Assembly (NCBI GenBank): GCA_026713305.1
Contig: JAPOOS010000270.1
Span: 1 to 35,705, forward strand
Reading direction: 5' to 3'
Source: Paracoccaceae bacterium
Lineage (GTDB): Bacteria > Pseudomonadota > Alphaproteobacteria > Rhodobacterales > Rhodobacteraceae
DNA: 35,705 nt
Part shown: piece by piece, positions 29,242 through 35,705 of the stretch
Layout: each line of letters begins with the position of its first letter
Numbering within the stretch: position 1 is the stretch's first letter
Translations under genes and position numbers: made by a program
Notes under the pieces: generated by a model
What the model saw: the letters and a program-made list of their open reading frames with translations, nothing else
What the model was told of the DNA's origin: nothing
The model's database searches: none

Positions 29242-30291
29242 CTAGCTTTCGCCGCTGTCGACAAATGCATCCGGCACGTCCGGCGGACCGTCACTGATCC
29301 AGGCTGGAATCGGAAGTTCCTTCCGCTTCAGAAACGACGGCGAAAACAGACGGGACTGATAGCGAGTTCCATAATCGCAAAGCACGGTCACAATCGTATG
29401 GCCGGGCCCAAGATGTTCCGCCAGGCGAACTGCGCCCACGATGTTGATTCCCGAGCTTCCTCCGAGGCAGAGACCCTCGTGCATCAGAGTGTCGAATATG
29501 GCCTCGACCGCCTCGCGATCCGAAACTTGGCACTGAAAGTCGAGGTCAAGCCCCACGAGGTTTTCGGTTACGCGTCCCTGCCCTATGCCTTCGGTTATCG
29601 AACTGCCCTCGGCCTTCAACTCGCCATGGGCGTAGAAGTTGTACAGCGAAGCGCCGAATGGGTCCGCCAGGCCGATTGCAATGCCGGGATTCTTCTGACG
29701 AAGTCCGAAGGCCACGCCGGCCAACGTGCCGCCAGTTCCGACGGCACAAACAAAGCCGTCGACCTTGCCACCTGTTTGTTGCCAGATTTCCTGGGCCGTG
29801 GTCTCGAAGTGTCCGCGCCTGTTGGCCAGATTGTCGAACTGATTGGCCCAAAAGGCGCCGTGCGGTTCGGATTCCGCAAGCTTCTGCGCCAGGCGATCCG
29901 AGTATCGGACAAAGTTGTTCGGATTCCGGTACGGCACTGCCGGAACCGGCACCAGAACCGCGCCGAGTAGCCTCAGCACGTTCATCTTCTCCTGGCTTTG
30001 GTTGTCCGGAATGACGATGACCGTCCGGTAGCCCAGTGACGAACCGACGAGCGTCAGGCCAATTCCCGTGTTGCCGGCGGTTCCTTCGACGATCGTTCCG
30101 CCCGGCTCAAGGAGCCCTCTTGCCTCGGCGTCCTGTATGATGGCCAGCGCCGCCCGGTCCTTGACCGACTGGCCGGGATTGAGAAACTCCGCCTTGCCAT
30201 AGATGTCGCAGCCGGTTGCCTCCGAAACTCGGCGCAGCTTTATCAGTGGCGTGTTGCCGATCGCCTCGGCAAGGCTTTCGCATTTTTTCAT
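29242..30291 (-). CDS. cysK: Cysteine synthase-like PLP-dependent enzyme
   Basis: IGNTPLIKLRRVSE, FLNPGQSVKDRAALAII (PLP Lys), IVEGTAGNTGIGLTLVGSSLGYRTVIVIPDNQSQEKMNVLRLLGA, GTGGTLAGVAFGLR, GGSSGINI. Confidence 0.88.
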   Translation of the reverse strand: MKKCESLAEAIGNTPLIKLRRVSEATGCDIYGKAEFLNPGQSVKDRAALAIIQDAEARGLLEPGGTIVEGTAGNTGIGLTLVGSSLGYRTVIVIPDNQSQEKMNVLRLLGAVLVPVPAVPYRNPNNFVRYSDRLAQKLAESEPHGAFWANQFDNLANRRGHFETTAQEIWQQTGGKVDGFVCAVGTGGTLAGVAFGLRQKNPGIAIGLADPFGASLYNFYAHGELKAEGSSITEGIGQGRVTENLVGLDLDFQCQVSDREAVEAIFDTLMHEGLCLGGSSGINIVGAVRLAEHLGPGHTIVTVLCDYGTRYQSRLFSPSFLKRKELPIPAWISDGPPDVPDAFVDSGES

Positions 30292-30322
30292 GGGCCAGAT
30301 TCCGGCAAGTCGGGATGCAGTC

Positions 30323-32473
30323 CTACCGTGCGGATTTCCTGGCCTGCCGCCAACGGTGCAGAATCGGTTCCGTGTATCCGTTTGGCTGATCCAGGCCCTC
30401 GAAAACCAGTTCCCTGGCCGCCAGGTATGCTTCGGTCTCGAAGCCGGGCGCCATGGGCCGGTAATCCGGGTCGCCGCTGTTTTGTCGATCCACGACTTCG
30501 GCCATCTCCTTCATCATTTGATCAACCAGGTCCCTGCTCAGTATTTCATGATGGAGCCAGTTCGCAATGTGCTGCGAGGATATTCTGCACGTTGCCCGGT
30601 CTTCCATCAGGCCGACGTCATTGATGTCAGGGATCTTTGAGCAGCCGATGCCCTGATCGACCCAGCGAACCACATATCCAAGAATTCCCTGCAGGTTGTT
30701 TCGGACTTCCTGCGCCAGTTCGTCGCTTGACCACAGATTGCCGCCGGCAAGCGGGATTTCAAGGATTGTGTCCAAGTCGGCGCGGGCTCCCTGTCGAGAC
30801 AGTTCGGCCTGCCGAGCCAGGACGTCGGTGCGCAGGTAATGCGTTGCGTGAAGCGCCGCTGCGGTGGGGCTGGGCACCCAGGCTGTGTTTGCGCCGGCCT
30901 GCGGATGCTCGATCTTGACCTCAAGCATGTCGCTCATCAGGTCCGGCATGGCCCACATGCCCTTTCCAATCTGCGCCGATCCGCTTAGCCCGCAGCGCAG
31001 CCCGACGTCGACGTTCCAGTCCTCATAGGCTGACAGCCAGGGGGCTTCCTTGATGTCGGCCTTGCGAAGAAACGGGCCCGCCTCTCCCGAAGTGTGGATC
31101 TCGTCTCCCGTGCGGTCAAGGAATCCGGTGTTGATGAAGGCCACGCGCCGCCTTGCGGCTGCAATGCAGCCCGCCAGATTGACGGTTGTGCGGCGTTCCT
31201 CGTCCATGATGCCGATCTTGACGGTGTTTTGTGGCAAGCCAAGGATTTCCTCGACGCAACTGAACACCTGGTCGCAAAACTCGACCTCCGCCGGACCATG
31301 CATCTTTGGCTTGACGACATACACCGAACCGCGGGCGGAGTTGCGGCGATCGCCTCTGACGTCATGAAGCGCGATCATGACCGTGCAAAGAGCATCCAGC
31401 AAGGCCTCGCTGATCGTATCGCAGTCGGGGCTGCGAACCATGTCGGTGCTGACGTGGGGCGCAGTGTTGCGCACGAGCAGAAGCGCTCTCGCCTTCAGCG
31501 TCCTGGGCCGACCGTCGGGGTCGAGCACCTCCCTGTCCTCACGGATTCGCCGCGTGATGCGGCGCCCATTCTTCACAAGCTCGGCGGTCAGGTCGCCCTT
31601 GAGCACGCCCATCCAGTTTCGGTAGGCAAGCGCCTTGTCCTCGGCATCGACGACGGCGACCGAGTCCTCGCAGTCCATGATGGTCGTGACTGCCGCCTCA
31701 ATCTGGACGTCGCAGACCCGGGCCTTGTCCGCCCTTCCCACCGGATGATCGGCATCGAACTGAATTTCGACATGCAGCCCATGCTTGCGCAGGACAATGC
31801 TGTCGGGCGACTGCGGCGCCCCCGTATAGCCGACCAGCTGTTCTTCATCCGCCAGCCGAAAGGTGGCGCCGTTGGCTTCCACAGCGAGCCTGCCCTCGCC
31901 GACGCGGTAGCCGGTTGCTTCCAGGTGGGACCCAGCGCCGAGCGGAAAGGCATCGTCCAACAGTTGCCTGACCCATGCGACAACCTTGCCGCCGCGATCG
32001 GCGTCGTAGCCGTGCGCCGCCGGAAGCGCTCCAAACACGTCCGAGCCATAGAGTGCATCGTAGAGGGAGTTCCAACGGGCGTTTACGGCGTTCGTCGCAA
32101 ACCTTGCATTGGTTACCGGCACGACCAGCTGCGGTCCGGGTATGGTCGCAATTTCAGGATCGACGTTGCTGGTTTCAATCCTGCAATCGTCAGGTTCCGG
32201 GACAAGGTAGCCGATTTCCTCCAGGAAGGCGCGGTATTCGCCCAAATCAATCTCGCGGCTGCGGTTCGCTCGATGCCAGTCGTTGAGCTTGTTCTGCAAT
32301 TCACGCCGAACTTTCAGGAGTTCTCTGTTCCCGCGCTCGAACCTGGCGACAAGCGTAGACAGCCCCGCCCAGAAGTCTTCCCTCGAAACGCCGGTGCCTG
32401 GCAGCGCTTCCTCTTCGATGAACTGCGCCAGTGTGCCATGCACCTGCAAAGATCCGCGTGTTACGAACTCCAT
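30323..32473 (-). CDS. glcB: Malate synthase G
   Basis: VTNARFATNAVNARWNSLYDALYGSDVFG, TTIMDCEDSVAVVDAEDKALAYRNWMGVLKGDL, IGIMDEERRTTVNLAGCIAAARRRVAFINTGFLDRTGDEIHTSGEAGP, GVNTAWVPSPTAAALHATHYL-like GANTAWVPSPTAAALHATHYL. ATG at 32473. Confidence 0.95.
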   Translation of the reverse strand: MEFVTRGSLQVHGTLAQFIEEEALPGTGVSREDFWAGLSTLVARFERGNRELLKVRRELQNKLNDWHRANRSREIDLGEYRAFLEEIGYLVPEPDDCRIETSNVDPEIATIPGPQLVVPVTNARFATNAVNARWNSLYDALYGSDVFGALPAAHGYDADRGGKVVAWVRQLLDDAFPLGAGSHLEATGYRVGEGRLAVEANGATFRLADEEQLVGYTGAPQSPDSIVLRKHGLHVEIQFDADHPVGRADKARVCDVQIEAAVTTIMDCEDSVAVVDAEDKALAYRNWMGVLKGDLTAELVKNGRRITRRIREDREVLDPDGRPRTLKARALLLVRNTAPHVSTDMVRSPDCDTISEALLDALCTVMIALHDVRGDRRNSARGSVYVVKPKMHGPAEVEFCDQVFSCVEEILGLPQNTVKIGIMDEERRTTVNLAGCIAAARRRVAFINTGFLDRTGDEIHTSGEAGPFLRKADIKEAPWLSAYEDWNVDVGLRCGLSGSAQIGKGMWAMPDLMSDMLEVKIEHPQAGANTAWVPSPTAAALHATHYLRTDVLARQAELSRQGARADLDTILEIPLAGGNLWSSDELAQEVRNNLQGILGYVVRWVDQGIGCSKIPDINDVGLMEDRATCRISSQHIANWLHHEILSRDLVDQMMKEMAEVVDRQNSGDPDYRPMAPGFETEAYLAARELVFEGLDQPNGYTEPILHRWRQARKSAR

Positions 32474-32712
32474 CTCAAGACTTCCTTTCAAGACAATGCA
32501 TCAATGCCGGCGCCATGCGCAGCAGTCGCAGCCAACCGGTCCTGCCGCCAAAGCGCCTGATTCACGAGTGCCTGACGGGGATGTCGTCCACGCAGCCGCG
32601 ATCGTTGCAAGACCACTCTTGAAGAGGATGCATGCGTTGCGGGCTGTTTTGCGAACGCCGTCGAGGTATGGTGGGCTTATTGCACAGGCTCGGTGGATTC
32701 CGCAAGGAACGC

Positions 32713-33705
32713 TCAAGCGTTGACGTCAATGACCACGCGCCCGCGCACCTGTCCGCGCAGGATGTCCTTGCCGAGCTGTGGCAGATCCGCCAGCGTCCTC
32801 ACGGACGTGACTTCCTCCAAGTGCCGGCGGGGAATGAGCTGGGCTATTCTTTCCCAAGCCCTCTGGCGACGATCAACGGGTTGCATCACGCTGTCGATTC
32901 CCAGCAGGTTGACGCCCCGCAGCAGGAAGGGAATCACCGTGGTCGGCAGCGCCGCGCCGCCGGCAAGCCCAACTGCAGCCACCGAGCAGCCGTATTTCAT
33001 TTGCCCCAGCACGCGTGCCAATGTTGTGCCACCGACCGCATCGACGCATCCTGCCCAGGTTTCTCTTTCAAGAGGCCGCTTCGTGGTCTCGGCCAGCGCC
33101 TGGCGATCAAGGATGTCCGATGCTCCCAGCGATCGCAGGTAGTCTTGCGACTGGCTGCTCCCGGTAACGGCGCTGACCTGATAGCCCAGCGCCGCCAGCA
33201 GCGATGTGGCAACCGATCCAACCCCTCCGCTTGCGCCGGTCACCAGCACGGGTCCGGCATCCGGTTTCATGCCATGCTCCTCAAGCGCGTCGATTGCCAG
33301 CATGGCTGTCAGTCCCGCCGTGCCTATCGACATGGCGCCCCTTTCGTCAAGACCGTCCGGAATGCCAACCAGCCAGTCGGCGTTGACACGCGCCTTTTGT
33401 GCGTATCCGCCCCAACGCACCTCGCCAACTCGCCAGCCGGTCAGGACCACCTTGTCGCCGGGCGAAAACCGATCGTCGTCGGATGTCTCGACGCTTCCCG
33501 AAAAGTCTATGCCCGGCACATGTGGATAGTTTCGGACCAAGCCTCCGCCGGGACCGATGCACAATCCGTCCTTGTAGTTCAGCGTCGAGTAGGCGACATT
33601 GACCGTTACGTTTCCTTCGGGAAGATCGTCGTGTGTTATCCTCTCGACCGAAGCCGACGTCCTGCCTTCTTCGTTCCTTTCGACTACCAGTGCGTTGAAT
33701 GGCAT
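32713..33705 (-). CDS. acuI: Acrylyl-CoA reductase (AcuI/YhdH-type MDR family)
   Basis: FNALVVERNEEGRTSASVERITHDDLPEGNVTVNVAYSTLNYKDGLC, VPGIDFSGSVETSDD, GWRVGEVRWGGYAQKARV, VLVTGASGGVGSVATSLLAALGYQV; adjacent to a dmdA homologue. Confidence 0.88.
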   Translation of the reverse strand: MPFNALVVERNEEGRTSASVERITHDDLPEGNVTVNVAYSTLNYKDGLCIGPGGGLVRNYPHVPGIDFSGSVETSDDDRFSPGDKVVLTGWRVGEVRWGGYAQKARVNADWLVGIPDGLDERGAMSIGTAGLTAMLAIDALEEHGMKPDAGPVLVTGASGGVGSVATSLLAALGYQVSAVTGSSQSQDYLRSLGASDILDRQALAETTKRPLERETWAGCVDAVGGTTLARVLGQMKYGCSVAAVGLAGGAALPTTVIPFLLRGVNLLGIDSVMQPVDRRQRAWERIAQLIPRRHLEEVTSVRTLADLPQLGKDILRGQVRGRVVIDVNA

Positions 33706-33722: not shown

Positions 33723-34847
33723 TTATGTGAATGACGAGCCTCGTACCGTGGCCGTTTCGGTTCTGCCGGGCAATTCAACCGTCAGTTCGGTGCCGGCATC
33801 CCAATATGGCGCCTCCACCATTCCAATCGCGACATTGGTTTCCAAATCCCACGACCAGCTCGCCGCGGTGATCCGTCCGGCGAACCTGTCCCCGCAGGCA
33901 AGCCTCCATGCCTTGTCGCACATTGGCGCCGGCGGTCCTGAAATGGCCAGAGACCTGACGCATCTTGCCGGCCCCTGCTCCCTGATGCGCAGCAGCGGCT
34001 CCCGAGCCAGGCAATCGGAGGCGCCCTCAAGGTCGCAGTACTTCCCCAGCCCGCATTCGTAGGGATCGTTTTCGATGGTCACGTCGCCGCCGTAGGAAAG
34101 CATTCCCGCCTCTATGCGTTCGGTGTAGTTTGGGCTGCCGGGTCCGACATCGAGGTCTCTTCCAGCCTCCATCAACGCTTCCCAAAGCGGCATGGCGAGA
34201 TCTGGGCGGTCAATATAAATTTCGTATCCGCCCTGCCGCGAATAACCCGACCGAGATATCACAAGCTCACGGTTCTTGAAGCCAAAGCGGCCGTAGCCAA
34301 AGAACCGCAGCTTCCGGACTTCCTCGCCAAACACGCGTCCCATCAGCTTGCCGGCCAAGGGGCCTTGAACAGCCAGCGGCGAGACATCGGGTTCCCACAC
34401 CTGGACATCCAGTTCAAACCCTGCCTTCAAACCCTTGATCCAGAGACTCAGGTCGCTGTCCGCTATCGACACCCAATAGCTGTCTTCCGCCAGCTTCAGA
34501 ACCAGAGGGTCGTTCAGCAGCTTGCCGCATTGGTCCACGGCAGGGATGTAGTAGCAACGCCCCACAACCATCGATTCAACTCGCCGCGGCACGAACAGCG
34601 CCAAGGTCTTGGTGGCGTCCTTTCCGCGGACGGCAACCTGGCGCTGGCAGGAAACGTCCCAAAGCTGCACTCTGGACTTCAAATGGCGATAGTCCTCTTC
34701 AGGAGTCCTGAAATGCACCGGCAAAAGCGTGTGGTTGTAAACCGAACAGGAATGCACTCCAGCAGCCACGACTCCGGGCCAAAACGGACTCCTCCGAATT
34801 CTCGTGGTCGCAAAGAAGTTGAGAGCCCGGGTCAACTCCGTCCTCAC
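33723..34847 (-). CDS. dmdA: DMSP demethylase DmdA-like, GcvT family
   Basis: RIRRSPFWPGVVAAGVHSCSVYNHTLLPVHF, DYRHLKSRVQLWDVSCQRQVAVRGKDA, GRCYYIPAVDQCGKLLNDPLVLKLAEDSYWVSIADSDLSLWIKGL, EPDVSPLAVQGP, SRSGYSRQGGYEIYI, ERIEAGMLSYGGDVTIENDPYECGLGKYCDL resembles remembered Pelagibacter/Roseobacter DmdA along most of its length. GTG start overlaps the upstream stop. Confidence 0.83.
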   Translation of the reverse strand: MRTELTRALNFFATTRIRRSPFWPGVVAAGVHSCSVYNHTLLPVHFRTPEEDYRHLKSRVQLWDVSCQRQVAVRGKDATKTLALFVPRRVESMVVGRCYYIPAVDQCGKLLNDPLVLKLAEDSYWVSIADSDLSLWIKGLKAGFELDVQVWEPDVSPLAVQGPLAGKLMGRVFGEEVRKLRFFGYGRFGFKNRELVISRSGYSRQGGYEIYIDRPDLAMPLWEALMEAGRDLDVGPGSPNYTERIEAGMLSYGGDVTIENDPYECGLGKYCDLEGASDCLAREPLLRIREQGPARCVRSLAISGPPAPMCDKAWRLACGDRFAGRITAASWSWDLETNVAIGMVEAPYWDAGTELTVELPGRTETATVRGSSFT

Positions 34848-35545
34848 CTCTCCGGTCCGCGCCAGTCAATGGCGCAAATTTCGGCTGACCGGCCTTGAAA
34901 GTCCCAGACGCGTCCATAGGCCCGAACGCGTCCCTTTGTTGCCGTCGCAACGATGATGTCGCTGCCCATCCAGTACTTGGTGTTGGTGGCCACAACGTCC
35001 TTGCTCGGGTCCTGACCGGTTATGGGAACGACTTCACCCTGAATGCGCTTTCCGACAAGCAGCCTTCTTGCCTTGCCATCCGACTCGAATCGAACCTTGG
35101 TCCTTTTCACGCCAAGAAATTCGGAAACGAGCATCTTGAACAGGCCAGTCGTGCCCTTCGCCCTTCCGGAAAGGATCTGCGTCAGTCCGTGATAGGCTCG
35201 ATGAGACGAGCGATCGTCAATGAAGACACCGGCCTTCCAGTTTCCCCGAGCCATCATTCCGGGAATCTCGAGAACCATGCCAACGTTCAATCCCGAGAGG
35301 GATTCGCTGCCGTAGGCGCCGTCGTCAATCCTGATTCCTGCCCAGGCCTGACAAACTCCCTCGGTCGGCGGATGACGCCCCAGACTGACGACGCAGGGAC
35401 AGAAAACCGTGCAGTTGCAGTTGAGAATCAGCTCACCCTTGATGAACCACGGAATCAGCCCGCGGTCCGACTTGGTGACTGTTGGATGGCGTGAATCGAT
35501 TCGGCCCCTGACGGCGATTCGATCGGATTTCCTTCTCTTCGTCAT
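34844..35545 (-). CDS. DUF1326 domain protein
   Basis: ELILNCNCTVFCPCVVSLGRHPPTEGVCQAWAGIRID (CxCx3CxC), FVS-type conserved segments, RAYHGLTQILSGRAKG. ATG 35545; TGA overlaps the dmdA GTG (GTGA). Confidence 0.85.
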   Translation of the reverse strand: MTKRRKSDRIAVRGRIDSRHPTVTKSDRGLIPWFIKGELILNCNCTVFCPCVVSLGRHPPTEGVCQAWAGIRIDDGAYGSESLSGLNVGMVLEIPGMMARGNWKAGVFIDDRSSHRAYHGLTQILSGRAKGTTGLFKMLVSEFLGVKRTKVRFESDGKARRLLVGKRIQGEVVPITGQDPSKDVVATNTKYWMGSDIIVATATKGRVRAYGRVWDFQGRSAEICAIDWRGPER

Positions 35546-35558
35546 GTTGACTCCCGTG

Positions 35559-35705
35559 TCATGCGATCGAACTCGCAGCAATCACCGCGGAAGCGGCGAC
35601 AAGACATCCACCCAGTGGCCTCGAAACGTATCGGCCGAGAGCGGGCAACTTCTCCAGAGTGATGAACAACGTCGCCAATCCCATCCAGGCAAGCGACATC
35701 ATTCC
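35559..35705 (-). CDS. DUF2182-like membrane protein, C-terminal end only (truncated by window)
   Basis: Reverse-strand translation GMMSLAWMGLATLFITLEKLPALGRYVSRPLGGCLVAASAVIAASSIA* matches the G(M/V)MxLAWMxxLTxxxLLEKL end typical of DUF2182; stop lies 13 bp before the DUF1326 ATG. Confidence 0.65.
   Translation of the reverse strand, partial: GMMSLAWMGLATLFITLEKLPALGRYVSRPLGGCLVAASAVIAASSIA

Follow-up and report, generated by a model that had tools for sequence, protein, structure and literature searches.

Gene order at the contig end

DMSP is an algal sulfur compound, and acrylate is a toxic by-product of its breakdown. The dmdA-acuI operon has a central place in the turnover of DMSP in the sea, and most work on it has dealt with these two genes. 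In the majority of the dmdA genera examined here, they are preceded by two others, one of which belongs to a copper-moving family. What do these two genes, encoding a DUF2182 and a DUF1326 protein, do in front of dmdA? If the pair matters, copper availability would be tied to DMSP and acrylate catabolism, and the functionless DUF1326 family would gain a role.

The question arose from a stretch of 35,705 nucleotides (the window), which is one entire contig (C78) out of the 351 that make up a fragmented genome whose closest named relatives are Rhodobacteraceae/Paracoccaceae MAGs. On the minus strand, DUF2182 (truncated by the contig end), DUF1326, dmdA, acuI, glcB, and a cysK-like gene follow one another in this order:

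35559..35705, minus strand: DUF2182/PpoB2 gene, 3' end, 48 codons and stop (PF09948, 29.7 bits; cut-off 28.7)
34844..35545, minus strand: DUF1326 gene, 233 aa, with GGGAG before the ATG (PF07040, E = 4.8e-46)
35393..35419, minus strand: codons of the C-x-C-x3-C-x-C cluster (C43, C45, C49, and C51), conserved in 81 DUF1326 proteins
34833..34847, minus strand: predicted coupled junction of DUF1326 and dmdA (from the sequence and the sibling junctions)
33723..34847, minus strand: dmdA, DMSP demethylase (NF009133, 487.7 bits; equivalog cut-off 410)
32713..33705, minus strand: acuI/yhdH, acryloyl-CoA reductase family, 17 nt 3' of dmdA (TIGR02823, 441.9 bits; cut-off 297)
30323..32491, minus strand: glcB, malate synthase G, the conserved next gene within the genus (NF002825, 1097 bits)
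29242..30291, minus strand: cysteine synthase family gene (cysK-like), 3' of glcB in siblings too (NF007989, 536 bits)

Because the contig ends there, just the last 48 codons of DUF2182 lie in the window. They close with TGA (35561-35559) 13 nt before the ATG of DUF1326 (35545), and both this distance and the CNCTVFCPC motif of DUF1326 (residues 43-51) agreed with the original prediction, which had been made from the sequence of the window. The window end shares a 141-bp identical overlap with another contig (C281), whereby DUF2182 is completed to 255 aa; the full-length protein on C281 scored 167 bits against the PF09948 cut-off of 28.7, and its closest named relative is complete at L135:6193-6987. 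DUF1326 was over the PF07040 cut-off (157.5 bits vs 25). AcuI was slightly below the cut-off of the equivalog NF051456 (423.9 vs 440 bits) and within the wider subfamily TIGR02823. Scanning the window for promoters and terminators gave a result no better than chance. The glcB and cysteine-synthase-like genes after acuI (29242-32491) may represent an extension of the operon that is specific to the genus.

A GTGA overlap of DUF1326 with the start of dmdA had also been predicted. The overlap is present: the TGA that ends DUF1326 (34846-34844) shares bases with an in-frame GTG (34847), at which the ORF of dmdA begins; however, this GTG is not certain to be the start. An alternative TTG at 34835, located 8 nt past the DUF1326 stop and preceded by the good ribosome-binding sequence GAGGTGAGG, appears to match the sibling junctions better: in six same-genus genomes, the dmdA ATG lies approximately 6-9 nt after the DUF1326 stop. 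Whichever start applies, the predicted tight spacing of the two genes is conserved.

Linkage of the pair to dmdA and acuI

In the same genus, DUF1326 was found directly before dmdA, with acuI and glcB after it, in 7/7 genomes where a true dmdA was found. The family survey covered 199 genomes of 198 genera, i.e., about one per genus. dmdA was over the cut-off in 85 and DUF1326 was present in 106 of the 199 genomes. Counting the dmdA neighbourhoods, which had been proposed together with the original prediction, revealed DUF1326 linked to dmdA in 64 of the 85 genomes, within about 1.7 kb, always upstream and on the same strand, although, the linkage being inherited, these genera cannot be counted as that many independent events. 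The arrangement is thus not peculiar to the genome in which it was first noted. None of the 52 sub-cut-off DmdA-like paralogues in the same family had DUF1326 nearby, and DUF2182 stood alongside 118 of the 123 DUF1326 genes in the family. The spacing between DUF1326 and dmdA varies because other genes are inserted between them. Within the genus, DUF1326 was 72-73% identical to most siblings and 85% to the nearest one, whereas the corresponding values for DmdA were 48-51% and 68%; across 25 family members, the identity to the DUF1326 protein of the window was 54-85%.

Gene maps were drawn for 60 neighbourhoods as well as for 80 named loci (Jannaschia, Ruegeria, Roseovarius, Phaeobacter, Tritonibacter, Yoonia, Seohaeicola, and others). 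The usual order in the mapped loci was a divergent GntR gene followed by DUF2182-DUF1326-(DinB)-(dmdA)-acuI, with the genes in parentheses being optional. A CoA ligase gene lay between DUF1326 and dmdA in a few loci, and acuI was often followed by genes for a BCCT transporter, a cysteine-desulfurase-like protein (class V aminotransferase), a photolyase (phr), and a cyclopropane synthase (cfa). In the genomes lacking dmdA, the pair was located directly before acuI or DinB-acuI, so that acuI, and hence acrylate, is the steadier partner; the counts of acuI linkage are to be read as "at least". Most likely, dmdA is an optional member that joined a pair-acuI unit later. The pair is itself separable and dispensable, since GntR-(DinB)-dmdA-acuI was kept without it at two loci (L221 and L222) and the pair was kept without dmdA and acuI at another (L220). 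The operon membership of the pair in the Rhodobacteraceae is well supported.

Some further observations concern the neighbours. The DinB-family protein (169 aa; L115:6450-6959 and many other loci) often lies between DUF1326 and dmdA or acuI. In one genome (G022:C59:14845-16643), the DmdA-like sequence between DUF1326 and acuI consists of two pieces and contains an in-frame TAA; this dmdA is, as judged from its reading frame, decaying beside an intact pair. Two loci of another alphaproteobacterial family (L264 and L265, f33), where the pair had seemed to stand beside acuI, were rejected as DMSP-linked: the genes directly after DUF2182-DUF1326 are really phosphatidylcholine-synthase-like and quinone-oxidoreductase-like. 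At L262 (G237), an acyl-CoA synthetase gene follows the pair, and a DddP-like M24 protein is encoded about 3 kb further on; its 398 bits fall short of the 600-bit cut-off, and no claim to DddP is made.

The genes around acuI admit a different reading, in which the pair is a general thiol/electrophile stress module with no copper client, which the acrylate operon would carry on account of the toxicity of acrylate. The DinB gene that separates DUF1326 from dmdA at many loci and the phr, cfa, and class V aminotransferase genes downstream would fit such a module, as would the protection by AcuI against acrylate toxicity (PMC3338564). However, phr and cfa may just happen to lie nearby, and a stress module leaves unexplained the tyrosinase and SBP56 neighbours of DUF2182 (see below) and the one PpoB2 protein that has been tested. 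We therefore consider this reading unlikely.

The order of dmdA and acuI is the same as in the acrylate-linked dmdA-acuI operon of roseobacters (Todd et al. 2012, PMC3338564), but the two upstream genes, DinB, and GntR are unmentioned in the accessible part of that account. Similarly, acuI has a regulator gene beside it in the acuR-acuI-dddL operon of Rhodobacter sphaeroides (described in PMC3338564), but the regulator there is of the TetR type, and it and a DMSP lyase occupy the place of GntR, the pair, and dmdA. The literature searched, with subscription papers outside it, contained nothing on DUF1326, DUF2182, or R. pomeroyi SPO1910-1912, and what joined dmdA with "copper chaperone" there concerned MtoX and DddW only. 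This agrees with the earlier statement that no described link of DUF1326 or DUF2182 to DMSP was known. Within this scope, the pair in the dmdA-acuI operon is likely undescribed.

Gene spacing and a candidate operator

The median gap was 14 nt from DUF2182 to DUF1326 (n = 77), 8 nt from DUF1326 to dmdA (n = 36), and -1 nt from DUF1326 to DinB (n = 30). An A/T-flanked, repeated palindrome, TGTCWGACA, was found in the GntR-DUF2182 gap at 47 of 51 loci (e.g., L150 and L158), and 78 of its 83 strict matches in 1.02 Mb fell between GntR and DUF2182. At the two loci without the pair (L221 and L222), the sites lay between GntR and the dmdA unit. From this distribution we infer that TGTCWGACA is a candidate operator bound by the FadR-type GntR of the dmdA-acuI operon. 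In the mapped loci of the window's own genus, the GntR gene and the operator were both absent; upstream of the pair were a lon-like gene in siblings and tRNA-Asp on C281.

Acrylate and DMSP induce dmdA and acuI approximately 10-14-fold in R. pomeroyi (PMC3338564). The same paper describes a lacZ fusion induced by acrylate and DMSP that carried a 350-bp fragment with its 3' end inside dmdA. Transcription of dmdA from its own promoter, named with the original prediction as part of what would refute it, is partly borne out by this fragment in that organism.

This promoter activity just upstream of dmdA would also fit a pair that is a bystander, i.e., a self-contained metal module that an ancestor acquired next to acuI and that has been passed on with it while sharing no function. 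The second arrangement, DUF1326-DUF2182, occurred in 23 copies in the family, none of them close to acuI or dmdA; beyond the family, the neighbours of the pair were mostly unconserved, with phosphatidylcholine synthase being one example. Nevertheless, the adjacency persists where DinB or a CoA ligase gene has been inserted and whether or not dmdA is present, and the short gaps and the shared putative operator region also speak against a bystander, which we regard as quite improbable. The original prediction had suggested from the coupling that the pair acts in the same process as dmdA. Methanethiol handling, its first example, is not favoured by co-occurrence (see below). Since the coupling is widespread, the gaps are short, and the putative GntR operator region is shared, the pair and dmdA are likely to be needed under the same conditions.

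DUF2182 belongs to the PpoB2 copper chaperone family

DUF2182 had been put forward as a predicted metal-binding family of unknown function, and the latter requires correction, since PF09948 is now titled "PpoB2, Copper chaperone". Its sole characterised member, PpoB2 of Marinomonas, passes copper to a tyrosinase (PMC2855505). The present genes share with Marinomonas mediterranea PpoB2 (COG5486, PF09948; tyrosinase PpoB1) the family and the layout of a partner gene with a chaperone gene. Unlike there, the partner here is DUF1326, the chaperone gene comes first, and the unit lies in an acrylate/DMSP operon.

The structure model of DUF2182 was helical (pLDDT 85), as for a polytopic membrane protein. 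Among 59 sequences, M73, M77, M81, M82, C169, C173, C202, C205, C206, and M210 were invariant, and Met and Cys residues were kept along the helices. The structure search gave no convincing match of DUF2182 to any known fold, and no PDB relative was found by sequence for either DUF2182 or DUF1326.

Solitary DUF2182 genes have other neighbours. A tyrosinase gene was located 4-10 nt upstream of a solitary DUF2182 gene in three genomes (L276, L277, and L278 in G338, G596, and G420), and a pair encoding SBP56, a methanethiol-oxidase homologue, and ferredoxin was found upstream in one genome (L215). These tyrosinase and SBP56 neighbours lend the copper reading support that does not depend on published work. 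At four further loci (L272, L273, L275, and L218), DUF899, which is not a known copper protein, was directly upstream of or overlapped DUF2182. By analogy, the solitary loci suggest a partner-plus-chaperone layout in which DUF1326 would take the place of the partner. The metal of the pair is probably copper.

The tyrosinase-DUF2182 operons, which lie outside Marinomonas, are located at L276:3311-5630, L277:5011-7372, and L278:2941-5205, with a DUF7868 domain at the C-terminus of the tyrosinase. DUF899, thioredoxin-like by eye with a CxxC motif, is another candidate partner of the DUF2182 chaperone.

DUF1326 as a putative copper acceptor

Five Cys residues (C43, C45, C49, C51, and C65) were invariant in 81 of 81 DUF1326 proteins, which came from both arrangements and several families. 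As ligands, they would be compatible with Cu, Zn, or Fe-S. The DUF1326 model was all-beta and moderate overall, but poor at the Cys cluster (pLDDT <50 at residues 46-50). Its best Foldseek matches were coherent, all being acetoacetate decarboxylase (ADC) structures (E = 4.6e-6), but with a TM of only 0.3-0.4. Homology to the ADC superfamily was rejected, with an hhalign probability of 0.14% and no invariant Lys, and the modelled resemblance is kept as a hint on the fold. A search of the viral library gave no convincing fold match for DUF1326.

Taken together, a PpoB2-type chaperone expressed with its own Cys-cluster partner alongside acrylate/DMSP catabolism would be the best reading, to which we give about an even chance. 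DUF2182 would sit in the inner membrane and act there as a chaperone or transporter of copper, with its invariant Met and Cys residues as the path, and would hand copper, probably Cu(I), to DUF1326. The five invariant Cys of DUF1326 (CxCxxxCxC and the fifth) would form a soft-metal site, and DUF1326 would be either a copper protein that needs loading or a soluble acceptor that passes copper on. For such a role of DUF1326, as client or as acceptor, we can offer no more than an informed guess, somewhat short of even odds. Because the pair would be made together with AcuI and DmdA, it would serve acrylate/DMSP catabolism, in the simplest case as a metalloprotein acting on a catabolic product or as protection from the metal and thiol/electrophile stress arising from that catabolism. 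It is conceivable, though we would not expect it, that DUF1326 is a new Cys-ligated copper protein, perhaps an enzyme, that is loaded by the chaperone and acts on an acrylate/DMSP metabolite, in which case copper supply would control the step.

Methanethiol oxidase as a possible client

To our knowledge, AcuI and DmdA are not copper enzymes, and no known copper enzyme was found among the members of the dmdA-acuI operon with the pair. A periplasmic copper-dependent methanethiol oxidase (SBP56/MtoX) would be an attractive client, as it is reported to depend on copper and removes the methanethiol made downstream of DmdA; in this case, the pair would load the oxidase. MtoX has been reported as Cu-dependent, and its gene neighbours that of an SCO1 copper chaperone (PMC5739008). 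The mtoX-SCO1/senC-mauG operon likewise places a copper chaperone gene with a gene of methylated-sulfur metabolism, but here the chaperone is of another family and no mtoX is in the operon (PMC5739008): the SBP56 gene of the window genome lies on another contig (C198). Apart from the SBP56-ferredoxin-DUF2182 apparent operon at L215, a DUF2182/GntR locus abuts SBP56-ferredoxin at L216, and SBP56 is about 1.1 kb from DUF2182 in G075.

Family-wide, the pair and SBP56 co-occurred (OR 6.3). However, among the dmdA genomes, SBP56 was present in 41 of 70 with the pair vs 7 of 15 without it (p = 0.41), the pair also occurs in genomes without dmdA, and three SBP56 proteins tested scored below the curated MtoX cut-off. 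Furthermore, a genome of the same genus (G006) has the pair and dmdA and no SBP56. The co-occurrence and this sibling lower MtoX as an obligate client, and a methanethiol oxidase as the client is doubtful. The handling of methanethiol that the original prediction had offered as an example is not favoured by the co-occurrence, the SBP56-DUF2182 locus notwithstanding. The chaperone with DUF1326 as its own partner remains the preferred reading.

At L215:5644-8242 (G168:C5), the genes for SBP56, a 2Fe-2S ferredoxin, and a divergent DUF2182 lie in what looks like a single operon, with an overlap of 4 nt; after them come genes that resemble those for formaldehyde and sulfide handling.
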